Part shown: piece by piece, positions 4,305-63,569 of the stretch | Numbering within the stretch: the first letter of the stretch is position 1 | Layout: the number at the start of each line of letters is the position of its first letter | Origin: Brachypterus glaber | Lineage: Eukaryota > Arthropoda > Insecta > Coleoptera > Kateretidae | Length of the DNA stretch: 64,000 nt | NCBI GenBank assembly: GCA_958510825.1 | Contig: OY294052.1 | Location: 6,035,816 to 6,099,815, forward strand | Reading direction: 5' to 3' | Notes under the pieces: generated by a model | The model's database searches: none | What the model was told of the DNA's origin: nothing | What the model saw: the letters and a program-made list of their open reading frames with translations, nothing else | Translations under genes and position numbers: made by a program

Positions 4305-4690
4305 CAGGGTTATTCAGAAATAAGTTCCAGAAATTTAAGAGGTGATTCTACTTTAAAAAATATGAAAAAGTTCCTATAAATGTTGGTCCGGAAATGAGTC
4401 CTAAGGGAGCTCCGGCTCTTTAAAATTGTAATAAAAATAAGGTTTTTAATTAATAACTCTTGTACCCTTTAAGCTAGAACGACGAGCTTTTGCTTGTATG
4501 CTAGTATTAATAAGGGCAATAAGTTTATGTTAATTTATGGTTTTGAATTTATCCAGAGGCGTGCTTAGACAAACAAAATATGTAAGGCTTAACACATTTT
4601 TGCCCCAAACTTTTTTATGTGTATTTTTTTTGGATTGTTTGTAATAAATATAGATTTCTTCAGTATGATAATATTATATCACAGTATCAT
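4305..4690 (+). mobile_element. TA-type MITE (GGTCCGGAAATGAG family), 3'-truncated
   Basis: The element starts at TA|CAGGGTTATTCAG and carries the subterminal blocks GAGGTGATTCTAC and GGTTGGTCCGGAAATGAG. It loses similarity to its relatives near 4690. It belongs to the subfamily of the copy at 5211-5897. Confidence 0.7.
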
Positions 4691-5210
4691 ACTTATACTA
4701 TACAAAATTTTACATTTATTTTTACTTGAAAATGTATTAATAAATAAACTTTTCTAAGGATTCCAAAACATCCAAATGTTATGTTATTTAGGATGACTAG
4801 TAACAATACTGACGTTGTAGTATTTAATAGTGAATTTAATATCAAAAGTCGCGATATAAATAAGTAAATAATATGTATTTTCAAATAATATTACAAAACC
4901 AAATATATATATTTTTAAAATTGCTATATCGCTTTTCTGTGTGTAGTATTTTTCAAAAAATTAGCAATTGCAATTTATTCTGAAAGTACAATCACCTAAG
5001 TTAATCCTTTAAATCTGTAAGTCGTATAAACTAAATCATTAAATTGCCATTAATTCTTTCAGTATAACTATATAACTATAATCGGATTACCCAAATTTCT
5101 GGAATTGTACGGAAACTCTTAAGATTTTTATATTAGTGATAATTCTACTATAAGCCAAAGAATAACACTTTTTTAAATTTATTTTTAAATAGTGATTTTA
5201 AAAGTATATA

Positions 5211-5897
5211 CAGTCATTCAGAAATTTAATAGGTGATTCTACGTTAAAAAGTATGAAAAAAAGTTTCTATAAAGGTTGGTCCGGAAATGAGTCCTAAGGG
5301 AGCTACGGCTCTTTAAAACTGCAATAAAAATAAGGTTTTTAATTAATAACTTTTGTACCCTTTAAGCTAGAGCGATGAGCTTTGGCATGTATACTAGTAT
5401 TAATAAGGGTGATAAGTTTATGTTAATTTATTTTTTTGAATTTATCCAGAGGCGTGCCTAGACGGACAAAATATGCGAGGCTTAACAAATTTTTGCCCCA
5501 AACTTTTTTATGTATATTTTTTTTAGATTTTTGGTAAAAGATATATATTCCTTGAGTAAAACTACATAAAAAATGTCATACAGTGTAACACTGTAGGAGC
5601 AACCGTTTAAAAAAAAAATACAGTTAAGAGGAAGTAACATTTTGTGCCACTAAAAATGTTACTTTTTAAAAGGCATTACTCCTTTAATATTAAATTTAGG
5701 TGTTTTGAAATGAAGAATCTCCCAGCAGCATTAAAATTTTATTGGTGCTTTTTTTTGTTCCCCATTCAATATGTCCATCTTCGAAGGGCCGCAGCTTCCT
5801 TAGGGCTCATTTCCGGACCAACCTTTATAGGAACTTTTTTTCATATCTTTTAACGTAAAATCACCTCTTAAATTTCTCTTATTTCTGAATAACCCTG
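5211..5897 (+). mobile_element. TA-type MITE, ~690 bp
   Basis: The insertion is flanked by TA. It starts CAGTCATTCAGAAATTT and ends TTATTTCTGAATAACCCTG. Both ends carry the subterminal inverted block built of GGTGATTCTAC, a TATGAAAAAAAGTTTCTATA-like stretch, and GGTTGGTCCGGAAATGAG. It resembles the three long copies at 7038, 46639 and 61032 through its whole length. A TA duplication fits a Tc1/mariner-type mechanism. The 69-codon open frame at its right end recurs only because the repeat recurs. Confidence 0.75.
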
Positions 5898-6142
5898 TAT
5901 ATACTTTTCACCAACTTTTTATAAACCAACTTTATTCTTAGGCACTATAAAATAGTATTTTAAAGCGGTTTTTAAATTATTAAAAACTCAATTACTTTTT
6001 TATACAGGTAAAACTTTAACATTATCAAATTTAAAAAAAAATTCTATATCTCCATATAATTTGTCCATCTGTCTATCCAAATTTCCGTCCAACTTTGAAG
6101 GAATGCATAACCTACAAAGTTTCATGGTTAAAGGCCTATCCA

Positions 6143-6663: not shown

Positions 6664-8263
6664 GGTAGATTCTACGGGAGTCGGTCTTTACCTCGAAAAA
6701 ATTTACCTCGAAAGCAAATACCTCGAAAAAAATACCTCGAAAAAATTTACCTCGAAAGAACATTACCTCGAAAAGACCTTACCTCGAAAAAATTTACCTC
6801 GAAAGCACATTACCTCGAAAAGTCGTTACCTCGAAAGTACATTACCTCGAAAGTACATTACCTTGAAAGATTTTACCTCTAACGGCTTTTTTTTTTAATT
6901 TTTTATCTTTTTCTTTGCAATTATTGTATATTGTAGTTTTTTACTCATATTTTATCATTTATTGATTAAATTTTAATTTACGGGCATTTATTATCTTTTA
7001 GTTTTAGTAAATAATTAAAAATTAATCGATTAACCTACAGCCTGTTCCAGAACTCGCGTAGCGAAATTTAGGAGGTGTTTCTACATCCAAAAATATGAAA
7101 AAAAGTTTCTATAAAGGTTGGTCCGGAAATGAGCCCTAAGGGAGCTACGGCCCTTCGAAGATGACGTATTGAATGGGGAACAAAAAAAAGCACCAATAAA
7201 ATTTTAATGCTACAGGGTGATTCTTCATTTAAAACTGAGCAAAAAAGTATTATACACCAAAATACCTAAATTTAATATTAAAGGAGTAATAGCCTTTTAA
7301 AAAGTAACGATTTTGGTGGCACAAAATGTTACTTCCTCTTAATTGCATTTTTTTTGATAACGGTTACTCCCTCCTACAGTGTTACACTATATGATATTTT
7401 ATATGTATTTTTACTCTAGAAATCTATATTTTTTACAACAAATCCAAAAAACATACACATAGAAAACTTTGGGGCAAAAATGTTTTAAGCCTCATATATT
7501 TTGTCCGTCTGGGCACGCCTCTGGATAAATTAAAAAAATAAATTAACATAAACTTATTGCCCTTATTAATACTAGTATACATGCAAAAGCTCGCCGCTCT
7601 AGCTTAAACGGTACCCGAGTTATTAATTAAAAACCTTATTTTTATTACAATTTTAAAGGGCCCTAGATCCCTTAGGGCTCATTTCCGGACCAACCTTTAT
7701 AGGAACTTTTTTTATATTTTTGGATCTAGAATCACCTCTTAAATTTTGGCATGCCAGTTATGGATCACCCTGTATATCAGGAGTTTGCGAAAGATAAATT
7801 AGCGGTGTGTAAAAACTTTGTATATTATAAAGATCGTGCGTACAAAGACAGTTTTTTTTGGAAAGGTAAAATATGGTGAAATTGCTTGCAAAGGAATAAC
7901 ATTTATTGTTAATTATTTTGTTTTATAAAAAATGTTGCTGTAGATTTTTTGACAGTTTTTGATTATTTGTGATTTCAAATACTTTCTTTTTGTATAATAT
8001 GTCAATATTATTGCTTTAAATAACTAATAAATAATACTAAATTTATTGCTGTCAAATTTTCCTTCTTTTTCTAAAAAAAATTTTGTTTGTTTTAGTTTTT
8101 TTATAATTTTTAAAAAATTATTTATTTTAGAGGTAATTTTTTATGCGAGGTAATGGGCTTTCGAAGTAAAATTTTTCGAGGTAACGGTGTTCGAGTTAAA
8201 ATTTTCGAGGTAATTGCTTGCGAGGTAAATTTTTTCGAGGTAAAGACCCCTACCCGATCCTAC
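6664..8263. mobile_element. Element with TACCTCGAAA minisatellite at both ends
   Basis: The left end has GGTCTTTACCTCGAAAAAAT followed by about eleven diverged ~16-bp units of TACCTCGAAA (to about 6880). The right end (8130-8250) has the reverse complement, GAGGTAAATTTTTTCGAGG, ending CGAGGTAAAGACC. The terminal inverted repeat is thus itself a minisatellite. A complete TA-type MITE (7038-7772) sits inside, leaving about 860 bp of own sequence. No transposase is visible. The 109-codon frame across the left array is a product of the repeat. Confidence 0.75.
7038..7772 (-). mobile_element. TA-type MITE, 735 bp, nested copy
   Basis: TA|CAGCCTGTTCCAGAACTCGC begins the element and GGCATGCCAGTTATGGATCA plus CCCTG|TA ends it. 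It is the reverse-oriented sibling of 46639-47368 and 61032-61729. It inserted into the element with TACCTCGAAA ends, so it is the younger of the two. Confidence 0.88.
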
Positions 8264-16257: not shown

Positions 16258-16506
16258 GAGGGACTGACCGCGAGGACATCTTTTGTACAAGCCAAAGGAA
16301 CTCAGGAGGAACTTTGGAGGAACTCTGGAGGAACTCTGAAGAACTCTGCAGGAACTCCGGAGGAACTCCGAGGAACTAGGAGGAACTCTGGAGGAACTCC
16401 GAGAAACTCCGGAGGAACTCCGAAGGAACTCAGAGGAACTCTGAGGAACTCTGAGGAACTCTTTGCAAAAAGGAACTCTTTTGTACAAATTTTAGACGCC
16501 GTCAGA
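16258..16506 (+). mobile_element. hAT-like element with internal GGAACTCCGA minisatellite, copy 1
   Basis: The left end CGAGGGACTGACCGCG and a diverged right end (GACGCCGTCAG) match the inverted ends of the better copy at 21377-21629. Between lie TTTTGTACAAGCC, about fifteen units of a 10-12 bp minisatellite (GAGGAACTCYG) and AAAAAGGAACTCTTTTGTACA. Long frames over the array on both strands (E, L, R, N and S, F, V, P repeats) come from the repeat itself. Confidence 0.75.
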
Positions 16507-16589
16507 AACAATTATTATTTATTACCCATGCGGATTAACGTTTTTATTTTCAAACTAGATGAGCCATTACAAACACCTTATCCTACCTA

Positions 16590-16745
16590 TGGGCGCCAAT
16601 TTTTTTTGAAGGGGCGCCAAGTTTGGTAGAAACCGTCAGGGACAAAGCTTGTTTTCTTGAAGGTAATTTTGGGGGGCCAATTTTCGTTTTTCTTTTTTTG
16701 TAGGGGCGCCAAGTTTTGGTTGAAACTGTCAGGAACAAAGCTTTT
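16590..16745 (-). repeat. ~85-bp CGGTTTCTACC repeat, inverted piece
   Basis: Two units of the repeat seen at 538-1078 and 49700-49985, here as GGGGCGCCAAGTTTGGTAGA and AAACTGTCAGGAACAAAGC. It lies between two minisatellite element copies. Confidence 0.75.
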
Positions 16746-16814
16746 TTTTCGAGAGTGCCTTATTGGCAGTAGTGCTTGTATAGCGGTAATTTCTACGGCT
16801 TTATTGCCAAAAAT

Positions 16815-17043
16815 TACCCCTTCCAGAGAGGAACTCCGAAGAACTAGGAGGTACTCCGAAGAACTCGGAGGAACTCCGAAGAACTCGGAGGAACTCCGAA
16901 GAACTAGGAGGAACTCGGAGGAACTCTGGAGGAACTCCGTGGAACTCCGGAGGAACTTCGAGGAACTCCGAAGGAACTCTGAGGAACTCTTTGCAAAAAG
17001 GAACTCTTTTGTACACATTTCAGACGAGGTCAGCCCCTCAGTT
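16815..17043 (+). mobile_element. hAT-like element with GGAACTCCGA minisatellite, copy 2 (left end lost)
   Basis: The minisatellite (about fourteen units) is followed by TTGCAAAAAGGAACTCTTTT and the right end GACGAGGTCAGCCCCTC. The left inverted end is missing. Unit order differs from the other two copies. Confidence 0.72.
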
Positions 17044-21376: not shown

Positions 21377-21629
21377 CGAGGGGCTGACCGCGTCTGAAAT
21401 CTGTACAAAAGAGTTCCTTTTTGCAAATAGTTCCTTGGAGTTCCTCTGAGTTCCTTCGGAGTTCCTCTGGAGTTCCTCGGAGTCCTCGGAGTTCCTCCAG
21501 AGTTCCTTAGACTTCCTCGGAGTTCCTCCAGAGTTCCTTAGACTTCCTCGGAGTTCCTCCAGAGTTCTTCAGAGTTCCTCCTGAGTTCCTTTGGCTTGTA
21601 CAAAAGATTTCCTCGCGGTCAGCCCCTCG
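21377..21629 (-). mobile_element. hAT-like element with GGAACTCCGA minisatellite, copy 3 (complete)
   Basis: The perfect inverted ends CGAGGGGCTGACCGCG and CGCGGTCAGCCCCTCG are flanked by an 8-bp ATTTTTTT on both sides, which fits a hAT-type insertion although the duplication is low-complexity. Inside, TGTACAAAAGAGTTCC is followed by about fourteen GAGTTCCTCNG units and GGCTTGTACAAAAGA. It is the reference copy for 16258-16506 and 16815-17043. Confidence 0.85.
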
Positions 21630-34081: not shown

Positions 34082-34372
34082 GGGAGGCATAGCGTAGTGG
34101 CTAGCGCGTATGTATAGCAAGTCTACTATCGTGAGTTCGATTCTCACTGGCGCCGATTTGCCTTTTTCAGTTAATTAATAATTGAAATTTGGCGAAGGCG
34201 ATAAGTGAAACGGACAATCCCTAGAAACTGGTTCGAAAGTCGGTATAAGCCGGTGGTTCCCTCTACTACTAGCCCACAAAAGTCCTGGACTTAGGGGATG
34301 CTTAATTAAGTAGAATAGTACGAGGTTAAACAAATAAAACAAAAAATAAAACAAAACAAATAAAACAAATTT
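34082..34372 (+). mobile_element. tRNA-derived SINE, copy 1
   Basis: The head resembles a tRNA. An RNA polymerase III A box, TAGCGTAGTGG, lies at 34090-34100 and a B box, GAGTTCGATTC, at 34133-34143. A non-tRNA body (GGCGAAGGCG, GAAACTGGTTCGAAAGTC, CCCTCTACTACTAGCCCAC, CTTAGGGGATGCTTAATTAA) follows. The tail is A-rich with AAATAAAAC units. A possible target duplication AATTTATTTA flanks it. The second copy lies inverted in SDR-A intron 2. Confidence 0.88.
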
Positions 34373-45016: not shown

Positions 45017-45148
45017 ATATACTATTATTATTATTATGAAATGTGCTACAATGTAGCAGGATAAATGTTGTTATTAAGTAACTACTTCCTACTACTTAGC
45101 TTTTGTTACTATTACCTTAACCTAGTTCAACATATATTTCAGTGACTA

Positions 45149-45572
45149 CACGGAAAGAAATTAGTGGGCTCTGCGCTATACATTATAAGATATTTGGTAA
45201 CAGTGGCAAATTATAGTGATTTAAGCTATAGATTATAAGGGACACAATAACTAATAATGTTAAAAATAAATTGGAAACGATTATATATATTACAGACACG
45301 ATTATATTTATTACAGGCACTATTATAAATTTACAGAAATTTTATTATATTATAAAAATTATTAGCACGGACAATAATTAAATCTATTTAAGCTATAAAT
45401 GCCATACTATTTGTTATATTTTATTATTCACTAAACAATTAAAGTATTTCATATAAATTTTTACACTGACTGCCATAATTGTAAGAGAAAGCCTTGTATT
45501 TATATAATAAGCGATTATAATTTGCTTGGTATGTGTGTTATAGCGCTCCTAGCTATAATTTTTTTTTCCGTG
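45149..45572 (+). mobile_element. TA-flanked CACGGAAA element, copy 1
   Basis: TA|CACGGAAAGAAATTAG and TTTTTTTTTCCGTG|TA mark the ends. It is 424 bp and AT-rich, and is almost identical to 48460-48884, which is inverted. The ends are short inverted repeats with a TA duplication, suggesting a Tc1/mariner-like MITE. Confidence 0.88.
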
Positions 45573-46638
45573 TATAGTCTTTCAAAGTTTAAACTGTAAA
45601 TATTATCAAAGCCTGGTCAAACATTATAGTTAAAGGATATTAGTTTGTTTTAAGACAAGCCAAGTGCATGTAATTTGATAACCTAGGACCTAGGGTACTC
45701 CACTGCAACTGCACCTCCCCATCTTCCTCACCACCCTTGCATCCCCTGTGACGTCATTATCTAGCGCCACTAAGAATACCTGTTGATCTCTATAAAATTA
45801 AGTGTTATGTCTAAAAATAACTAAAAGTTTCAAAAGTTTTGGACGAATGAAAATGTTGCTTTAGGTATTGTACTAGCAGTGAAGCCCTTTCTTCGCACGG
45901 ATTATTTAAAAACTAAAATTATTTATCTCTTTAATAACCTTGTTTAATAACTTCTTCCAATTAATGGGTAAGGCGGTCTAATTTTCGTTTTTTTTTTTCG
46001 ATTTTTAACCGATCACACGTTTGGTTTTTAAAATTTGGTTAGGACATGTTGGTATAAAATTTTTTAACTCGGTAAAAAAATATTGATACACTGATAATAA
46101 TTATTTATGGTACTAGTGGGTAAAATAAGATATTGCCCATGAGAAAATTAACCTGCGAGGCGTCAGCCAAGCAGGTTAATTTTCGATTTCGAGGTTTTAT
46201 CCAATAAATAGCTTAGGAATTCATATTTTTATTAAACATTTTAGTGACATTTACAAGAAAATAATTTGACAAGTGACAGTTGAGTGGGTAAAATAAATAA
46301 TTATCCACTCAATAAAGTAAAAGCCACGCGGGGGTTATTATTGAGTTTATCTATTTAAAATAAAGCTGGTAATTGTCTTATTATCTGTATGTGCTGGATA
46401 AAAAAAATTATACAGTCTACCGTGTAGACTGAATTGACAAGAAAACTTCTTAGAGTGTGTAAAATAGTGTAAATTTTACTAAAAACGGTGTTAAAATTAC
46501 ACATTTTTACACAATTTAACACGATTCCGTGTCATTTCAGGTCTATACGGTCGCTTGTGTAAAAATTTTATCCTGAGTGTAAATTTGGAAATTTTAAAGT
46601 AAACTCAATGAACTACAAGTGTAAAGTTATATTATACA
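45573..46638. other. Unassigned stretch with MITE-like hairpins
   Basis: 46130-46205 contains GAGAAAATTAACCTGC and its complement around GAGGCGTCAGCC. 46420-46560 is rich in GTGTAAA/TTTACAC. No gene is recognised. Confidence 0.45.
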
Positions 46639-47368
46639 GGGTGATCCATAACTGGCATGCCAAAATTTAAGAGGTGATTCTAGATCCAAAAATATAAAAA
46701 AAGTTCCTATAAAGGTTGGTCCGGAAATGAGCCCTAAGGGATCTAGGGCCCTTTAAAATTGTAATAAAAATAAGGTTTTTAATTAATAACTCGGGTACCG
46801 TTTAAGCTAGAGCGGCGAGCTTTTGCATGTATACTAGTATTAATAAGGGCAATAAGTTTATGTTAATTTATTTTTTTAATTTATCCAGAGGCGTGCCCAG
46901 ACGGTCAAAATATATGAGGCTTAAAACATTTTTGCCCCAAACTTTTCTATGTGTATGTTTTTTGGATTTGTTGTAAAAAATATAGATTTCTAGAGTAAAA
47001 ATACATATAAAATATCATATAGTGTAACACTGTAGGAGCAACCGTTATCAAAAAAAAATGCAATTAAGAGGAAGTAACATTTTGTGCCACCAAAAACGTT
47101 ACTTTTTAAAAGGCTATTACTCCTTTAATATTAAATTTAGGTGTTTTGGTGTATAATACTTTTTTGCTCAGTTTTAAATGAAGAATCACCCTGCAGCATT
47201 AAAATTTTATTGGTGCTTTTTTTTGTTCCCCATTCAATACGTCATCTTCGAAGGGCCGTAGCTCCCTTAGGGCTCATTTCCGGACCAACCTTTATAGAAA
47301 CTTTTTTTCATATTTTTGGATGTAGAATCACCTCTTAAATTTCGGTACGCGAGTTCTGGAACAGGCTG
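46639..47368 (+). mobile_element. TA-type MITE, 730 bp, full copy
   Basis: TA|CAGGGTGATCCATAACTGG starts it and GAGTTCTGGAACAGGCTG|TA ends it. It is close to 61032-61729 (same orientation) and 7038-7772 (opposite). The subterminal inverted block with GGTTGGTCCGGAAATGAGCC is present at both ends. Frames at 47141-47338 belong to the repeat. Confidence 0.9.
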
Positions 47369-48459
47369 TATCTGGATGGTTTTAAAATTTCAAAATCTTC
47401 AAAAACGACTAGTTAAAAGAATTTATGTCTGTCCATCCATAGGTCACACTAATGAACGGAGTGACCAATCTATAAGAAAAGAAACAAGAACCCAAGATTT
47501 TTTTTATAAAGTTTATAATAACCGTTAAATATTCCAATATATAAAAAGCATCCCCAAATTGGAAGTGCTCCAATTTCTCACGGATTTTAAATTTAAATTC
47601 ACTTTAATGCAAATTTATCTTTTATTGCACAAAACATCTTCTTTATTCGATTGATAAATTATAAATTATGTATTCAAACACAATTTAGACCCCAAACGAC
47701 CTAAAATAACGTAAAATGACTTTTTTGCCAAGATCATTGAAATAACCTACCCTCATTTACCTATAAATCAATGAATTTATATTTGTATAATGTGAGGATT
47801 TATAAGTTAAGTATGGGTTTAAGGAAACCACATTTTTTTGGGTATTCTTTAACTTTTTTGTTCTCTTTTTTACGTTTTTTTGCGGCCACCACACACACTT
47901 CTGTTCATTTCTGCTCCAGATTAATTTGCATAATAGGTATATCGGTATCTTTTGTATTGTTAACCTTGGTCATTTCGTTATTTGGTCATAATAATATTTC
48001 ACACAAAATGGTGCAACCGTTTAAAATAAACTCAGCTGTAGGCCCTACTGAGGGTTAGATTATATAGATATATATTTTATTTATTTCTGATGTACAGGGT
48101 GTTCCAGGACTAGCCACTATCCTTAAACATCAAAAAATATAAAAATATCCTTAATGAAAATTTTAGTGAAAATTAAGGTAGAAACTTCTATGGGACAAAA
48201 AAAATAAATATTAATAATCATTAGGAAATAAACATATAGGTAGGTCTGAACTTCAAAAAATTACAAAACAATGGAAAAAAAGTCCGAGAAAATAAAGAGA
48301 TATCTCTGTGAAATTATGGGCACTTAAAATTTTACTGTAAGTGTGCTAATACTCGTGACGAGAAACAGCTGAAGTTTTATATGGCTTAGCACATGTGGAA
48401 TATTATTTTGTGTGGTCCGGAAAATAACTAATTTTTGTTTTTTCACTTGTACAGAATTA
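47369..48459. other. Unassigned stretch
   Basis: A 95-codon plus frame at 47771-48058 is hydrophobic and unrecognised. TACAGGGTGTTCCAGGAC at about 48096 looks like an isolated Tc1/mariner-type end. Confidence 0.4.
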
Positions 48460-48884
48460 CACGGAAAAAAAAAATTATAGCTAGGAGCGCTATAACACAC
48501 ATACCAAGCAAATTATAATCGCTTATTATATAAATACAAGGCTTTCTCTTACAATTATGGCAGTCAGTGTAAAAATTTATATGAAATACTTTAATTGTTT
48601 AGTGAATAATAAAATATAACAAATAGTATGGCATTTATAGCTTAAATAGATTTAATTATTGTCCGTGCTAATAATTTTTATAATATAATAAAATTTCTGT
48701 AAATTTATAATAATGCCTGTATTAAATATAATCGTGTCTGTAATATATATAATCGTTTCCAATTAATTTTTAACATTATTAGTTATTGTGTCCCTTATAA
48801 TCTATAGCTTAAATCACTATAATTTGCCACTGTTACCAAATATCTTATAATGTATAGCGCAGAGCCCACTAATTTCTTTCCGTG
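48460..48884 (-). mobile_element. TA-flanked CACGGAAA element, copy 2
   Basis: Inverted twin of 45149-45572, about 97-98% identical by eye. It begins CACGGAAAAAAAAAATTATA and ends TAATTTCTTTCCGTG, with TA on both sides. Confidence 0.88.
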
Positions 48885-49627
48885 TAGTTTACACCAAATG
48901 TTTATTTTTATAATCACTTAGGTATTGGATATCTGAATCTTTTACAAAATAATAATCGGCATCAGTCCTATAACTGGTTTGAGACAGTTCTCCATTCCAA
49001 CTATTTTTATATGTTTTAACCATTATTTGAAGATGCTATACCGAATTTTTTCTTCCTATATCGTACTAAGTTGGCTTTATTCTTTCCCAGGAATAGAACA
49101 GCGATTGTATACAAATTAGGTTCAATAATAGAGCTTACAACCTGTTACTTATATTACAATTAAAATTATAAGATTATTAATTAAAAATTATCATATAATA
49201 ATTATTATTCGCAAGGGTATCGTTAGGGATCAATAAATCCCATATCTAGCATATCCTAATTTACACCTTATTCATAATTATAGACCTCAGGATGACCCTT
49301 GCGGACAAAGGTTGTGCTATAAACGATCATTTTAGGGTTTTGGTAATAATTATAATCTATACATTACAGAATATGTTAGGTAATATTATATCCGAAACTT
49401 TCAAATTTTAAAGCTTAATCAAAGTCTCTGATTCAAAGAGACCTTTGAAAAGAGTGTCATGAAGTCAAACTTTGTTACACTATTTGCTCAAACATAAAAG
49501 TTTTATTTACAAAATTGATTTTTTAGCAAATACACACGTGAAAAAAATAAAGGATAATAATAATATTATTCGTAAATTATGAACCTAACTTACATGCTAA
49601 AATGAGTTACCGATATTTTACTTCACT
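48885..49627. other. Unassigned AT-rich stretch
   Basis: Nothing is recognised in this interval. Confidence 0.5.
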
Positions 49628-54276: not shown

Positions 54277-56786
54277 ATGATTGCTATAGTTTCAATTGTG
54301 ATTTTATTACTTTTAGCATTTAAAATATATTATAAATTAACGACAGGATGGTGCTTAAGTAATACTTGCCTTAAAGGAAAGACCGCTGTCGTGACAGGAT
54401 CAAATTGTGGTAAGTACTTATATAAAGGTTAGATTATGTTAGGTTAGGTTTAAGAATTACGTAACACACTTTTTAGCAATTTGGACTTTTACTTACACAG
54501 GTAAAAAATACCAAAAAAAACGGAAAAAAGTCATGAAGCGTCGAATGTTGAATATTTATAAACCTTATAGTGTCCTCTAAATGATTTGAATACATTTTTT
54601 TTGAAAATGTTTGCTGCCTTGCTTAAAAAATTAAATTTAAGTCAATTTTCTTAACTATTTTCCAGCTTGATAGTGCATTTTCCCATTTCGATCGTAGGGG
54701 TGGCTTAAATCAAATGGAACTTTTTACTTATTTTAGGCATTGGCTATGAGACTGCACTGGATTTTGCAAAGCGCGGTGCCAGAGTGATTCTAGCATGTAG
54801 AAGTCCAGAAAAAGCAGAAGAAGCTCGCAAAAAAATTATTGAAGAAACGGGAAACGAAAATGTAATTGTGCAATTACTTGACTATTCATCATTTTCTTCT
54901 GTGCGGAAATTTTGCTCAGAAATAATATCAACAGAGCAAAGATTGGACATTTTGATAAATAATGCTGGTGTCGGGGGCATAACAACAAATGACGAGAATG
55001 GGCGTAATTCAACCATGAAAACTAACTACTATTCACACTTTTTGTTAACCAATTTATTATTAGGTATGTTGCAAACCTTGTTATTTATACATTGTTAAGT
55101 TACATTACATTACATTTTGTTTAACCTCGTACTATTCTACTTAATTCAGCATCCCCTAAGTCCAAAACTTGTGTGGGCTAGTAATAGAGGGAACCACCGG
55201 CTTTAATTGACTTTCGAACCAATTTATAGGGAGTGTCCGCTTCACTTACGCCTTCGCCAAATTTCAATTATTAATTAACTGAAAAGGGCAAATCGGCGCC
55301 GGTGAGAATCGACACGGTAGTCCACTACACGAATCCTCCCATAAGTGAAAATTCTATACTAGATTTTTTAAAATATTTTTGACTTTGTCGAAAAGAAAAA
55401 TTGTTAGTTTTTTTTGAAAAAAAAAGGTTTTATTTTTTCTTCTTTCGAAAAAATATATATTTTTTTAAACTTGATTTCTTGTGTTTATAAAACTAGGCCT
55501 ACTGTAGGCCGCCTACAGGAGACGTATTCTTCTGTTGGCAGCAATAATTAATATCGTGTTTTAAATATTTTTAACTTGTGTTTATGTATTTGAGAAAATA
55601 CAATGTTTTAATGTATTTTTGTAGATTTACTATCAAAAACTCCAGACAGCAGAATAGTCAACGTCTCATCCATAGCCGCCAAATATAACCAGATTGATAC
55701 CGAAAAACTAAAAAAATTAGACAATCTTGTTAGCAACTTTGATATGTACGGTAGAAGTAAACTATGCCAGATTTTTTTTACCCGACAACTTGCCAAAAGA
55801 TTAAAAGGAACCAGCGTTACTGCATATTCTTTACATCCAGGACTTGTCGCGACGAATATTTTTAGGAAAAAGCCTAAATGGACGTTAGCTGTGATAACTT
55901 TCATCTTTAACAATTTATTCAAGGTACGTATATAGGAAAGGCGCCTAATTTCGGATAGTAGTATATCTAAGATATACTCTGCCTTCCTAAGCTGAAAGGT
56001 CCTATCTGTATATGTTAAACCTATGTAGATAGGACCTTTCAGCTTAACACGAAAGTACTATCTGCAAAGGTAAACAGAAACAGAAAAAGAAAACACCTAT
56101 TGCAAGAGAGAGATACAAATTTACAACCAATTAGAAAATTATAAAAATATCTGCGTCAGATATCAAAATTTTTCTTTTTAAACTTAAACTTTAAACTTTA
56201 ATAGTTATTAAAAATACAAATTTTGATTCGATTGATAAAATTCTAGTGCAAGGAGTCCATCTGCCAGTAGTGTCATATTTTGTAAACTTTTAAATATGGC
56301 CACCGTTGAACTCTTAGGTATATAGTTTAAACAACAGAAACCATTTTGATTCTCTAGTTTAATATAAACATAAGTTTGATATACGTTTATGATACGTTTA
56401 ACATACGTTTAACATACTTTTACCATACATTTAACATACGTTTAAAATACGTTTAACATACGTTTAACATACATTTAACATACGTTTAACTACATTTTAC
56501 GTACAAAACCATACATTGTATCTATACAGAGGAAAATTAGTTAGATTGAGTTAGATTGATTAGGTATTTATATTTCTTATCTTATTTATAGAGTTCAGTG
56601 GAAGGAGCACAAACGAGCATTTTTCTGGGAGTTGCAAAAAATATTGAGCATTTCAGCGGAGAACATTTTTCCGACTGTAAACGTATTGAGCCATATAGGA
56701 GTGCACAAGATATGTATATCGCGGAAAAGCTTTGGGAAAAATCAGAGGAAATCGTTAACTTGACGAAAGAAGAAAAACAATATTAA
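54277..56786 (+). CDS. SDR-A: retinol-dehydrogenase-like short-chain dehydrogenase/reductase, four exons
   Basis: Coding exons are 54277-54409, 54737-55063, 55625-55923 and 56592-56786. All introns are GT-AG and the product has 317 residues, the usual RDH11-14-like length. Residues 4-19 form one hydrophobic segment, as in membrane-anchored members. The cofactor motif TGSNCGIG is at 40-47. R60 and R66 with LACR favour NADP(H). D93-x-S-S, NNAG (119-122) and N141 follow. S169 in IVNVSSIA and Y195-x-x-x-K199 complete the catalytic tetrad. HPG is at 224-226. The family reduces or oxidises retinoids, steroids or other lipid carbonyls at the ER; the substrate here is unknown. The ATG is the first in frame and is conserved in the tandem copy. 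Intron 2 holds an inverted SINE and intron 3 a minisatellite. No disabling change is seen. Confidence 0.93.
55113..55341 (-). mobile_element. tRNA-derived SINE, copy 2, in SDR-A intron 2
   Basis: Inverse relative of 34082-34372. The head (GGGAGGATTCGTGTAGTGG on the minus strand) has a changed A box, and the B box reads GTGTCGATTC. The body and the AGGTTAAACAAA tail match. A (TACAT)n stretch lies next to the tail. The intron is about 560 bp, so the SINE is nearly half of it. It has no counterpart in SDR-B intron 2. Confidence 0.88.
55988..56046 (+). repeat. Perfect 20-bp hairpin in SDR-A intron 3
   Basis: TAAGCTGAAAGGTCCTATCT (55988-56007) is exactly complementary to 56027-56046, with a 19-nt loop. 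It could be a tiny foldback repeat or a pre-microRNA-like hairpin. The stem is perfect, which is less usual for a microRNA. It is absent from SDR-B intron 3. Confidence 0.7.
56375..56495 (+). repeat. ACATACGTTTA minisatellite in SDR-A intron 3
   Basis: About eleven diverged 11-bp units such as ACATACGTTTA. SDR-B intron 3 has a shorter, decayed run at 63185-63270, so the array predates the duplication and expanded or shrank afterwards. Confidence 0.85.
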
Positions 56787-58666: not shown

Positions 58667-61600
58667 ATGTTTGCGATAGTTTCAATTGTGATTTTATTAC
58701 CTTTAGCATTTAAAATATATTTAAAATTGACCACAGGATGGTGCCGAAGTAGTACTTGCCTTAAAGGAAAGACCGCTGTCGTGACAGGATCAAATTGCGG
58801 TAAGTATACTCATTTTATTTCATTAATAGTAACTATTTAGTAAACTAAATTAAATTGTTTGATATTTACAAATTTAAAAAATCTATATAAAACATTTTAC
58901 TATTCCTTTTTCGTTTGGAATGGATTTGATTTTCGTAGTTGTCCCTACTACCGATATGTGGCTCTGAAGAGTGCTAAAAAGCACGAAATCGATGAGTCAC
59001 TTCGGAGGGACGACTGCGTTAATCAAACAAAAGTAGTTTTAAGGAATAGTAAAATGTTTTATATAGATTTTTTAAATTTGTAAGTATCAAACAATTTAAT
59101 TTAGTTTATTAATTCAGATACCACTGTAAAAGGTGCCCTCCTAGCGTTTAGGATTCAATTGGCGGCAATGTCCACCGTGGCATTGATTAATCTGCCCCCT
59201 ATCGACAGCGTGCAATAGGTTCTTGAAACCAATAACTGCTTCCTTTTTTGGACTGTCGATAGGTTTATCCAGTCTCTGCTTTTAGCAGTAGATGTCGCTA
59301 GCTGTTTTTGCTTTTCCTTACAACGATTTTTAAACTCCATATAGAGATATATGGAAAGGATTTGATTTTCGTAGTTGTCCCTACTACCGATATGTGGCTC
59401 TGAAGAGTGCTAAAAAGCACGAAATCGATCAGTCACTTCGGAGGGACGACTGCGTTAATCAAACAAAAGTAGTTTTAAGGAATAGTAAAATGTTTTATAT
59501 AACTATTTAGTACTTTTGATTTTTATGATTGGTTCTTAATATTAGTTGTTTTGACTGAGGTTGCAATCATGGAATCACCTTTGAAGTTTTTCAAAATGAT
59601 TTTTCTTTTGTCACTGTCAGAAATAAAATTTCGTATTTTTTTCTTTAAAAATGCCTCAGTAATTTTATATAAGCAAACAAAGTGATATAATTAAGTGATA
59701 AAATAAATAAGTGATAAATAAGTGATAATAAATTGCGCTGGATATTTAACAGCATATAGAGACTTCTAAGGTATTTTCCAATCATGCTTTAAAATATTGT
59801 TGTAAAATTTTGCCACTTTTCTTCGTTACATTTGGGTAAAGCCTCATTTCATCATATTTTTATTCATAATTTAAAAAAACGCAAAAGTTTATATTGTATC
59901 TGAATACCTACCCCTGACGGATAATTTGATGACTAAAAAAAGGTCGTCTCCCCTGACGAAAAATTTTGATGACTAGAAAAAAGCGAGGCTTCTACGAACT
60001 TTCCAAATTTACGGTACATTATGTACCGCTCCAATTTTCTCAACAAATGAATTTACTGACCAAAAAATCTTCGCCCCCACCAATTTTTCAATCCTGTCAT
60101 AATTTTTTTAAATTTTTTAATGTAAATTAAATTTATTAATATTTTTACCATTTACACTAGTTTTTATATTTAATTATTATATTGTTTTAATAAGTTTGCC
60201 CTGAAGAAGCCCCAACAATAAGGGGCGAAACGTTGGCTTTATAATTTTGAGTTTTTTCACTGTGTTCTTAAAAGCAAGATTAAAATTAATATCCTGACAA
60301 TCAATTTTCCCAACTCCTTCACTCAATTTTGCCAACTATTTTCCAGTTTGACAGTGCATTTTCCCAACTCGAGCATAGGGTTGGCGTGTAAAGCAAATTG
60401 AAATTTTTACTTATTTTAGGCATTGGCTATGAGTCTGCAATGGATTTTGCAAAGCGCGGTGCCAGAGTGATTCTAGCATGTAGAAGTCCAGAAAAAGCAG
60501 AAGAAGCTCGTAAAAAAATAATTGAAGAAACGGGAAACGAAAATGTAATTGTACAATTACTTGACTGTTCATCATTTTCTTCTGTACGGAAATTTTGCGC
60601 AGAAATAAAATCCACAGAGCAAAGATTGGACATTTTGGTTAATAATGCAGGTGTTGGAGGCCCAACCACAAATGACGAGAATGGGCTTAATTCAACCATG
60701 AAAATTAACTACTATTCACATTTTTTGTTAACCAATTTATTATTAGGTATGTCGTAAACTGTGTTATTTACCCAGTCTTAAGTAAAACTGGTATACCAGG
60801 TTTGTCCAACACGGTGGCACCATCCAGCGGTCATATAGTTAAAACTTGAATCAAAATAACATTATTCAGTTTATTTTTTATTTTTTTTAAATTTCTTCTT
60901 TAAATTAACTTCGAAAAAAAAATCTTTTTGATTTTTTTTTTAACTTTTTGTTTTTCGAAAAAGTGTTTGGGAAAGTAATATAGTGCAAATAGTATAATAC
61001 TATAGTATAATAGAATGCGTAGCATTACATACGGGGTGATCCATAACTGGCATGCCAAAATTTAAGAGGTGATTCTAGATCCAAAAATATAAAAAAAGTT
61101 CCTATAAAGGTTGGTCCGGAAATGAGCCCTAAGGGATCTAGGGCCCTTTAAAATTGTAATAAAAATAAGGTTTTTAATTAATAACTCGGGTACCGTTTAA
61201 GCTAGAGCGGCGAGCTTTTGCATGTATACTAGTATTAATAATGGCAATAAGTTTATGTTAAATGACAAAATATATAAGGCTTAAAACATTTTTGCCCCAA
61301 ACTTTTCTATGTGTATGTTTTTTGGATTTGTTGTAAAAAATATAGATTTCTAGAGTAAAAATACATATAAAATATCATATAGTGTAACACTGTAGGAGCA
61401 AACGTTATCAAAAAAAAAAATGCAATTAAGAGGAAGTAACATTTTGTGCCACCAAAAACGTTACTTTTTAAAAGGCTATTACTCCTTTAATATTAAATTT
61501 AGGTGTTTTGGTGTATCATACTTTTTTGCTCAGTTTTAAATGAAGAATCACTCTGCAGCATTAAAATTTTATTGGTGCTTTTTTTTGTTCCCCATTCAAT

Positions 61601-63569
61601 ACGTCATCTTCAAAGGGCCGTAGCTCCCTTAGGGCTCATTTCCGGACCAACCTTTATAGAAACTTTTTTCATATTTTTGGATGTAGAATCACCTCTTAAA
61701 TTTCGGTACGCGAGTTCTGGAACAGGCTGTATCTTAATGGCTTGTTATAATGTATTTTTGTAGGGTTATTATTAAACACGGGAGATAGCAGAATAGTCAA
61801 CGTCTCATCCATGGCCGCCAAATATAACCAGATTGATTCCGAAAAACTAAAACATTTAAACAAATTTATTAGCAACCTTGATATATACGCTAGAAGTAAA
61901 TTATGCCAGATTTTTTTTACCCGACAACTTGCCAAAAGATTAAAAGGAACCAGCGTTACTGCATATTCTTTACATCCAGGATTTGTCGCGACCAATATTT
62001 TTAGGAAAATGCCCAAATGGATGTTAACTGTAGTAACTTTCATCTTTGAAAATTTATACAAGGTACGTAGAGCTTAGTTTAGTTTATCCTATTAACCATT
62101 TCAGATACAATGTATACAGTCAGGCGATCATGGCATTACGGACTATATTATAAACAGTTGGTATCTCTGTTCTGTAAAAGCACCGACCAATCAAATAATT
62201 ATTCACAAATCTGCATAAGATGTTAAAAATCTTGTTTTTGTGACAACTTTTACTTTAATAGATTATAATAATACAAATTTTGATTCGATTGATAAATGCC
62301 AGTAGTGTCATCTAGTAAATTTGTTGTTAAGTTTTAAATATAACCACCGTTGAAATCGTATATAGTTTAAACTGCTGAAACCATTTTGATTATCTGTTTA
62401 TTATTCCATCAATCTATTTTCTAATCATCGTACAGAGTGATATTGGTAGACTGACAGTTTCGGACTGCTGGCCCTCTTCAGTACCAAGAGTCAACTCTGC
62501 ACGCTGATTAAGAAAACGTTTTTAGACTTTACTCGCAAAAGGAATATAGCCATTAGATTGATGTAGACTTGTGCGCCATCTATTTCTAGATGTAGACAAC
62601 TACTCATACCTCTCCTTATCTGGAGACTTTGAATGGTAGCAAGTTGAAGACTTGTGTGTCTCAAGCACATAGTACCACTAACGGGTGGTTAGACGTAAAA
62701 TTAGTAAGGACAGAAATTTTTAATTTTAAACAAAATTATAAAAATATTAATTTATTATTCCATCAATCTATTTTCTAATCATCGTACAGAGTGATATTGG
62801 TAGACTGACAGTTTCGTTTGGACTGCTGGCCCTCTTCAGTACCAAGAGTCAACTCTGCACGCTGATTAAGAAAACGTTTTTAGACTTTACTCGCAAAAGG
62901 AATATAGCCATTAGATTGATGTAGACTAGAAAAAGATGGCGTACAAGTCTACATCAATCTAATGGCTATATTCCCTTTGCGAGTAAAGTCTAAAAACGTT
63001 TTCTTAATCAGCGTGCAGAGTTGACTCTTGGTACTGAAGAGGGCCAGCAGCCCGAAACTGTCAGTCTACCAATATCACTCTGTACGATGATTAGAAAATA
63101 GATTGATGGAATAATAAATTAATATTTTTATAATTTTGTTTAAAATTAAAAATTTCTGTCCTTTTGATTATCTGGTTTAAACCTACATTTAATATATCTT
63201 TAACATAGTATCTGTAACATATGTATTACGTTTAAAATACTTTTAAAATAAGTTTAACCTACGTTTAACTAAATATTACATATGAAGCCATACATTGTAT
63301 TGATACAGAGACAACTTAATTATGTTGAGTCAGTTAGATTGATTAAGTATTTATATTTCTTTTCTTATTTATAGAGTTCACTGGAAGGAGCACAAACAAG
63401 CATTTTTCTGGGAGTTGCAAAGAATATTGAGCATTTTAACGGAGAACATTTTTGCGACTGCAAACGCGTTGAGCCATATAAAAGTGCACAAGACATGTAC
63501 ATCGCGGAAAAGCTATGGGAAAAATCAGAGGAAATCGTTAACTTGACGAAAGAAGAAAAACAATATTAA
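58667..63569 (+). CDS. SDR-B: tandem paralogue of SDR-A, four exons
   Basis: Coding exons are 58667-58799, 60420-60746, 61764-62062 and 63375-63569. Exon lengths, phases and splice sites match SDR-A exactly, and the product is again 317 residues. TGSNCGIG (40-47), NNAG (119-122), N141, S169 in IVNVSSMA and Y195-A-R-S-K199 are all present. Exon 3 is the most changed (GLLLNTGDS for DLLSKTPDS; several differences at 181-192). The N-terminal anchor carries L12P. It is presumably a membrane-bound oxidoreductase of the same class with unknown substrate. Introns are 1620, 1017 and 1312 bp, against 327, 561 and 668 bp in SDR-A. The excess is mostly a 658-bp hammerhead element (intron 1), a 698-bp MITE (intron 2) and a 765-bp hammerhead element (intron 3). 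Confidence 0.93.
58941..59011 (+). ncRNA. Type I hammerhead ribozyme, unit 1 (C17G, probably inactive)
   Basis: Stem I is GTCCCT/AGGGAC and CCG/CGG, then an internal loop ATAT against TT, then GTGGCT/AGTCAC. The core CTGAAGA is at 58964-58970. Stem II GTGC/GCAC has the loop TAAAAA. GAAA is at 58985-58988 and the palindromic stem III ATCGAT follows. The cleavage nucleotide (58994) is G instead of C. NUG sites are not cut by hammerheads, so this unit should be dead. Confidence 0.82.
59377..59447 (+). ncRNA. Type I hammerhead ribozyme, unit 2 (intact)
   Basis: Identical to unit 1 through all stems and loops but with C at the cleavage position (59430), giving AUC. Core CTGAAGA 59400-59406, stem II 59407-59420, GAAA 59421-59424. 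Stem III (ATCGAT) is self-complementary, as in hammerheads that work as dimers of neighbouring units. Position 7 of the core is A, which is allowed. It lies sense to SDR-B. Confidence 0.85.
59513..60197 (+). other. SDR-B intron 1, middle part
   Basis: AT-rich sequence. 59900-59985 has CCCCTGACG-type phrases with TTTTGATGACTA repeated, distantly like 10200-10270. Otherwise nothing is recognised. Confidence 0.45.
60198..60237 (+). ncRNA. Hammerhead-like motif with one extra base
   Basis: GCC (60198-60200) and GGC (60235-60237) would form stem I. CTGAAGA is at 60201-60207. A strong stem II, GCCCC/GGGGC with loop AACAATAA, and GAAA at 60227-60230 follow, then ACGT as a palindromic stem III. One unpaired A (60208) separates the core from stem II, which departs from the consensus. 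The phrase CTGAAGAAG-hairpin-CGAAACGTTG is, from memory, common in animal repeats. Activity is uncertain. Confidence 0.45.
61032..61729 (+). mobile_element. TA-type MITE in SDR-B intron 2, 698 bp
   Basis: It starts CGGGGTGATCCATAACTGG after TA and ends TTCTGGAACAGGCTG before TA. It is like 46639-47368 apart from a ~37-bp deletion near 61263. It ends only 34 bp before the exon 3 boundary, leaving just the last part of the acceptor region. SDR-A intron 2 has no copy, so it inserted after the duplication. Confidence 0.9.
62430..62502 (-). ncRNA. Type I hammerhead ribozyme, unit A
   Basis: On the minus strand: outer stem I GTGCAGAGT with ACTCTGTAC (one G-U pair), inner stem I TTGGTA/TACCAA, CTGAAGA, and stem II GGGC/GTCC (one G-U pair) with loop CAGCA. 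GAAA and a short stem III (ACT/AGT) follow. The cleavage triplet is GUC, with the cut between complements of 62449 and 62448. The core is complete. It is antisense to SDR-B. Confidence 0.83.
62784..62860 (-). ncRNA. Hammerhead ribozyme, unit B (4-nt insertion)
   Basis: Same as unit A, but four extra bases (GTTT on the plus strand, 62816-62819) lie between stem II and GAAA. This displaces the core, so the unit is probably inactive. Confidence 0.75.
63013..63085 (+). ncRNA. Type I hammerhead ribozyme, unit C (inverted, intact)
   Basis: Outer stem I GTGCAGAGT (63013-63021) pairs with ACTCTGTAC (63077-63085). The internal loop is TGACTC against TATC. Inner stem I is TTGGTA (63028-63033) with TACCAA (63067-63072). 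Core CTGAAGA is at 63034-63040. Stem II GGGC/GCCC has the loop CAGCA, and GAAA is at 63054-63057. The stem III region ACTGTCAGT is nearly palindromic. Cleavage follows GUC at 63066. Every consensus base is present, and it lies sense to SDR-B. Confidence 0.88.

Follow-up and report, generated by a model that had tools for sequence, protein, structure and literature searches.

Metazoan retrozymes are dispersed families of non-coding tandem units, 170-400 bp long and low in GC, that carry a type I hammerhead with a short stem III and are flanked by target duplications longer than 4 bp in genomes that also hold Penelope-like elements (PLEs; Cervera and de la Pena, 2020; PMC7229834). Whether LINEs or PLEs move them was left open there, and the integrator of animal retrozymes was again left open in PMC11722881; PLEs have been named as candidate mobilisers in PMC7229834, PMC7761336, PMC11722881 and PMC8969392. 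Frangieh et al. (2024; PMC11167929) describe a PLE protein with a preference for AT-rich targets, both strands of which it cuts and extends; its reverse transcription starts at two adjacent internal sites, the interval between which forms a genomic tail called "unique to PLEs"; the hammerhead cut lies at +26 and the start at +111 to +118, so that about 85-92 nt separate cut and start. Bdelloid PLEs have two direct pLTRs with an adjacent inverted pLTR, an optional 31-bp tail on one inverted pLTR and, in Pen2a_Av, a 9-bp duplication (Arkhipova; PMC3846280). Plant LTR retrozymes are likewise non-autonomous, with a hammerhead, tandem repeats and a circle model, but are distinguished by a type III hammerhead, LTR, PBS, PPT and a 4-bp duplication (PMC7229834).

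The element described here lies in a stretch of 64,000 nucleotides of the beetle Brachypterus glaber (the window, that is, the whole stretch of DNA that was analysed). It represents a single insertion from a young family of non-autonomous metazoan retrozymes of the non-LTR type, a known kind of element; its cleavage and its circles are predicted. The hammerhead-bearing tandem repeats of insects reportedly also include the pDo500-type satellite DNA of cave crickets, from which the beetle family differs in consisting of dispersed insertions with target duplications. It shares with metazoan retrozymes all the features given above, and has neither the type III hammerhead nor the LTR nor the 4-bp duplication of plant LTR retrozymes. 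The word "inverted" is absent from the main text of PMC7229834, whereas the present insertions show both outer ends together with the inversion and allow two start sites to be placed.

The likeness to PLEs comprises tandem copies, a head-to-head inverted end, a tail at one inverted 3′ end, a target duplication, an AT-rich target and a hammerhead upstream of the RT starts (PMC3846280; PMC11167929). The retrozyme agrees with the PLEs of these papers on each point, its second start site lying 97 nt from the cut and its tail measuring 45 nt. It differs in its hammerhead, a canonical type I motif with stem III and a stem I in two parts, where those of PLEs are minimal. Moreover, its frames are stop-to-stop only, of 60-65 aa, and it holds no ORF with RT and GIY-YIG domains as PLEs do. 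Thus, it is at most a PLE-dependent element. It is a further animal retrozyme, and the PLE signature in its insertions appears to be new within the open-access literature searched, in which no paper stating such a signature was found.

The insertion in the SDR-B intron

The interrupted gene, SDR-B, encodes a short-chain dehydrogenase (PF00106), the named best relatives of which are beetle retinol-dehydrogenase-11-like proteins. Unit positions (u) are numbered from the predicted hammerhead cleavage site (u1), and A and B denote the two kinds of outer end. The features are as follows:

56344..56356, + strand: empty site, without the insertion, of the tandem SDR paralogue, TTTTGATTCTCTA, from alignment of the joined flanks
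61751..62077, + strand: open frame with the SDR-B exon upstream of the intron, retinol dehydrogenase 11-like, PF00106
62384..62396: left copy of the target-site duplication, 13 bp, TTTTGATTATCTG, exact match to 63162-63174
62397..62927, − strand: left arm, 1.5 units, RNA sense on the − strand; outer end A at u52 (GGAATAATAAA, then target)
62432..62500, − strand: intact type I hammerhead by descriptor, predicted cleavage between 62449 and 62448
62449..62802, − strand: one full 354-nt unit numbered from the cleavage site, u1 = 62802, u354 = 62449
62706..62750, − strand: tail segment u53-u97 within the left arm, between putative initiation sites A and B
62786..62858, − strand: third hammerhead, with an extra AAAC between stem II and GAAA, not matched by the descriptor
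62926..62927: head-to-head inversion joint at which the arms overlap by 2 nt, the left one ending at u234 and the right one beginning at u214
62926..63161, + strand: right arm, about 0.67 unit, with + as the RNA-sense strand; its outer end, of kind B, is at u95 (TTTCTGTCC, then target)
63015..63083, + strand: intact type I hammerhead by descriptor, motif identical to the family consensus, predicted cleavage between 63066 and 63067
63119..63161, + strand: tail u53-u95, at the B end, absent from the A end
63162..63174: right copy of the target-site duplication, 13 bp, TTTTGATTATCTG, exact match to 62384-62396
63375..63569, + strand: open frame with the SDR-B exon downstream of the intron

The sequence-only reading had described a palindromic element at 62397-63161 with a 13-bp duplication, a 354-bp tandem period and an uninserted site preserved in the tandem paralogue, and this outline was borne out. 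The two copies of the 13-mer are exact and flank the element without being part of a longer repeat, and the joined flanks align straight through the paralogue, which has a single equivalent of the 13-mer. The direct period of 354 was recovered, the second unit carrying 4 inserted nt, and the palindrome comprises 193 nt of ungapped arm at 98% (62397-62589 and 62926-63118) with more arm past the insertion. The arms are not identical in their variants: C339T occurs in both passes of the left arm and not in the right arm, which has three more differences.

The consensus-perfect hammerhead at 63015-63083 lies on the sense strand of the SDR-B intron, yet the left arm offers it a pairing partner. The SDR-B pre-mRNA might be cut by it, or the hairpin might mask it.

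Other repeats are found in the window. One repeat family, about 700 bp long and bounded by inverted ends of 124 nt at 88%, is present in several near-identical copies (61029-61732, 4365-5903, 7036-7776 and 46633-47372), one of them in an SDR-B intron, and looks like a MITE. Inverted arms of 423 nt with 99% complementarity, 2.9 kb apart, form a young inverted-repeat element at 45145-48888. Minisatellites built of units resembling TTACCTCGAAA or AGGAACTC, which occur in either orientation, lie at 6688-6882, 16295-17000 and 21429-21590, and an Rfam tRNA match of 38.5 bits in repeat-rich DNA at 34083-34155 (+) may be a gene or a tRNA-derived SINE.

Hammerhead motifs and the genome-wide family

A stringent descriptor for type I hammerheads (CUGANGA core, stem II of at least 4 bp, GAAA, stem III, UH and stem I of at least 5 bp) matches exactly two places on both strands of the 64 kb and gave a match in 0/300 dinucleotide shuffles of the window. 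Three type I hammerheads had been proposed; two of them are intact, and the third, broken by the 4-nt insertion, does not pass the descriptor and is not counted. The one said to show every consensus feature, at 63013-63085, is the descriptor match at 63015-63083, and its predicted cleavage point falls after 63066, just where it had been placed. The 69-nt consensus hammerhead folds with z = -2.67, its helix III has the 2-3 bp of metazoan non-LTR retrozymes, and the motif is intact in 95 of the 106 full units examined genome-wide. The test set by the sequence-only reading, recognition by hammerhead models, went against it in Rfam, which gave no hammerhead in the window at gathering score and, at E ≤ 10, a single one (RAGATH-1, 20.8 bits, E 0.95), on the broken copy, the other matches being at chance level and mostly to miRNA and snoRNA models responding to the palindrome. 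We give the hammerhead call more weight than this null result because of the descriptor, its shuffles and the intact units of the family.

When the genome (648 Mb in 842 contigs) was searched with the window element, dispersed arrays of 354-bp units were found, as the sequence-only reading had foreseen, with at least 306 matches. The best 39 of 638 candidate places were scored, so that family counts are lower bounds, and the 39 loci examined (the window copy and 38 others, chosen by the search tool as best) are biased accordingly, with long young arrays over-represented. Among the 106 full units in these loci, 97 are exactly 354 nt long, 47 are identical to the consensus and 101 have at most three differing sites; the family is young. 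Its units belong to the low-GC tandem units of about 150-450 bp without ORF that characterise metazoan non-LTR retrozymes, and it is likewise dispersed and multicopy with target duplications longer than 4 bp. The family, its target duplications, the empty site and the insertion anatomy of PLEs in the same genome support the earlier assignment of the element to the non-autonomous hammerhead/Penelope class.

Ends of retrozyme and PLE insertions

All 39 loci were placed on the unit numbering. A single inversion is present in 33, and in all 33 the left arm is minus and the right arm plus, so that the RNA 3′ sides face outward; the other six (L018, L023, L026, L035, L039 and L044) have no inversion. 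The palindrome is therefore the normal two-ended insertion structure of the family, not a foldback accident of the window copy. A duplication of net length at least 10 flanks 28/39 loci, from which L037 and L046, both within simple repeats, were dropped; in the remaining 26 the duplications measure 12-17 bp, and 13 bp in 12/26.

Where do the insertions end within the unit? The 23 double-ended loci with a clear duplication have one A end and one B end in every case (23/23), A/A or B/B being found in 0/23, with A ends at unit positions 45-60 (median 51) and B ends at 93-100 (median 96), bins that were set post hoc after data inspection. Each of the three single-ended loci with a duplication (L023, L026 and L035) has an A end at its primed side. 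Judged by BLAST ends, the eight double-ended loci that lack a clear duplication are less orderly: A+B fits in L021 (52/103) and L041 (104/64), and no clean fit was obtained in L011 (102/88), L017 (91/99), L020 (78/56), L031 (204/52), L033 (98/81) and L043 (98/72). Inversion points and unit numbers vary by locus, arm lengths range from 0.16 to 14 units, and the inversion joints lie at unlike unit positions of the two arms. The A arm is the longer in 17/23 loci (Wilcoxon P 0.08), from which no length bias is claimed; nor is a hairpin claimed in the A-B interval, since it folds no better than shuffles (z 0.49). The two clusters of ends correspond to the two adjacent internal RT start sites that give the tail in PLEs, and the head-to-head joints (33/33) to extension of both target strands.

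The same genome contains PLEs. A GIY-YIG search gave at least 31 matches (150 of 419 candidates scored), and one contig has a 3.0-kb tandem PLE (PLE-A) with a 637-aa open frame that includes RT and GIY-YIG domains and has relatives among the PLE-type proteins of insects and of further animals. A probe consisting of the pLTR and tail of PLE-A gave at least 44 matches (40 of 159 candidates scored), with ends at probe position 207-218 or 238-240. Opposite-strand pairs have one short and one long end in 11/11 cases, with the RNA 3′ sides outward, and 22/44 are unpaired among the matches listed. The PLE-A duplications, for which 10/12 insertions were usable, measure 12-19 bp, 13 bp being commonest (4/10); the rows left out are L065/L066, in which no duplication was found, and L073/L074, in which an 11-bp match is ambiguous.

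In a second PLE, PLE-B (L054), the duplication is 14 bp long, the two arms each bear a hammerhead and face outward, and the tail measures about 30 nt; another locus (L051) has inverted arms for which a duplication was looked for and not found. The distances from the putative hammerhead cut to A and B are 52/97 nt in the retrozyme, 60/83 in PLE-A and 69/99 in PLE-B, the PLE-A hammerhead having been recognised by eye, not by model, with a core that deviates from CUGANGA. No sequence similarity was seen between the retrozyme and the ends of PLE-A, compared by eye, or PLE-B.

Two side observations concern PLEs. In the window, a PLE-type minimal hammerhead (CTGAAGAAGCCCC..GGGGCGAAACGTTGG) followed by GTGTTCTTAAAAGCAAGA at 60199-60260 (+), a motif nearly as at the PLE-B end, marks a PLE remnant just upstream of the first listed SDR-B exon. 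At L055 (C556:2000-9900), the 3.0-kb tandem PLE adjoins a GCGAAAAATA-rich minisatellite array.

Target sites of the retrozyme, with A at the left, read roughly AAC/TA...TA/GTT (slashes mark the borders of the duplication), a near-palindrome. GTT stands directly outside the duplication in 9/46 retrozyme flanks, against a background of 1.9% (P 2e-7), and in 6/20 PLE-A flanks (P 1.5e-6), or 6/22 with the ambiguous L073/L074, the word having been chosen after data inspection. The retrozyme thus resembles the PLEs of its own genome both in the GTT flank and in the 13-bp mode of the duplication.

Mechanism and template

The insertions record the RT start sites base by base, and the pattern is that of PLEs, among them the PLEs of this genome. 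The finding is relevant to how animal retrozymes are mobilised and makes a suspicion testable in any retrozyme-bearing animal genome. The loci would also supply dozens of natural reactions of PLE type on a substrate of 354 nt, much smaller than a PLE itself. We consider it very probable that the young retrozyme was inserted by PLE-type RT/GIY-YIG machinery, with starts at A and B, a stagger of about 13 bp, a circular or concatemeric template and head-to-head joining. The 354-nt unit RNA would contain the type I hammerhead and, downstream of the cleavage site, RT start sites A (52 nt) and B (about 97 nt). In an AT-rich target, a Penelope-type RT/GIY-YIG enzyme would cut the two strands at points about 13 bp apart, and the two target 3′ ends would then act as primers on the RNA, the first starting from A and the second from B. 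The cDNAs would each run a variable distance round a circular (or along a concatemeric) template, and end-joining of the two cDNAs head to head would produce tandem units with one internal inversion and a 12-17 bp duplication. The PLE protein as actor, the order of these steps and the circular template are what we infer from the insertions.

Inversions and duplications of similar length also occur in LINE-type target-primed reverse transcription with twin priming. LINE starts, however, are at the RNA 3′ end, whereas the outer ends here fall at two fixed internal positions of the RNA, separated by 45 nt and each used once per locus (23/23), and neither a poly(A) nor a 3′-repeat end was seen at the listed junctions; a LINE-type origin is accordingly very improbable. 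A foldback or MITE DNA transposon, or a satellite moved by recombination, would account for inverted arms with a duplication and for tandem units, but is scarcely credible when the two ends differ by a 45-nt tail and recur at the same two RNA positions while inversion points, unit numbers and duplication length (12-17) vary by locus. Could the second arm instead have arisen by snap-back self-priming of the first cDNA, as proposed for PLE palindromes (PMC3846280), with no priming by the second target strand? The arms are nearly identical and head to head, and those of L011 have a common 2-nt deletion near the joint. Such self-priming would be expected to leave two like ends, yet none of the 23 loci is A/A or B/B; the window arms differ, with C339T in the left only and the three further differences in the right, and the joints are at unlike unit positions. 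The A+B rule thus disfavours snap-back priming, which we regard as very unlikely, and favours a concerted asymmetric particle.

The link of one start site to each DNA end is a strand link that the in vitro work on a PLE, in the part cited here, does not report. Tentatively, the rule (23/23 in the retrozyme and 11/11 in PLE-A) may reflect a single dimeric PLE particle that grips one RNA asymmetrically, with one active site on each side of the tail, each extending one cut strand, and the 354-nt hammerhead circle would be the minimal such RNA. Animal retrozymes would then be to PLEs as SINEs are to LINEs, by way of two-ended rolling-circle reverse transcription.

What was the form of the template? 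In every one of the 23 A+B loci, one or both arms continue through the cleavage junction, which rules out a cleaved linear monomer; this candidate was rejected. Unit pairs of the same array with a common private variant number 31, compared with 2.2 in shuffles (maximum 9 in 2000). For instance, A11T+C95G occurs in three successive units of L010, C119T+C120T in four successive units of L025, private variants in alternate units of L021, and C339T in both left passes of the window copy. Mean pairwise unit difference did not separate units within arrays from units between arrays (3.9 vs 3.7; medians 2 and 2), but this comparison is dominated by two heavily deleted units, and the private-variant test was used instead. 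The shared private variants are as expected if a circular or concatemeric template was copied repeatedly, and of the two the circle is the simpler.

One locus (L020, C12:9474600-9480600) has an 856-bp higher-order repeat, in which two units and a partial unit with an identical internal break are copied three times, possibly the trace of an abnormal 856-nt circle.

PLE-type integration might instead have used linear multimers transcribed from a genomic array. This alternative to the circle deserves weight: in vitro, hammerhead-dead RNA is inserted equally well by PLE protein, and unprocessed RNA is the main substrate (PMC11167929). The mixture of unit types within the arrays of L015 and L021 is as in a concatemer, and a source array could already show repeated variants. 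The excess of private-variant pairs speaks against it, however, and the repeated doublets of L025 and L010 together with the L020 block are simplest as rounds of one circle, so that we hold the linear multimer to be a serious but somewhat unlikely template. The RNA source of the two arms is itself mixed among loci, since A11T is common to both arms of L010 and the arms of the window copy differ.
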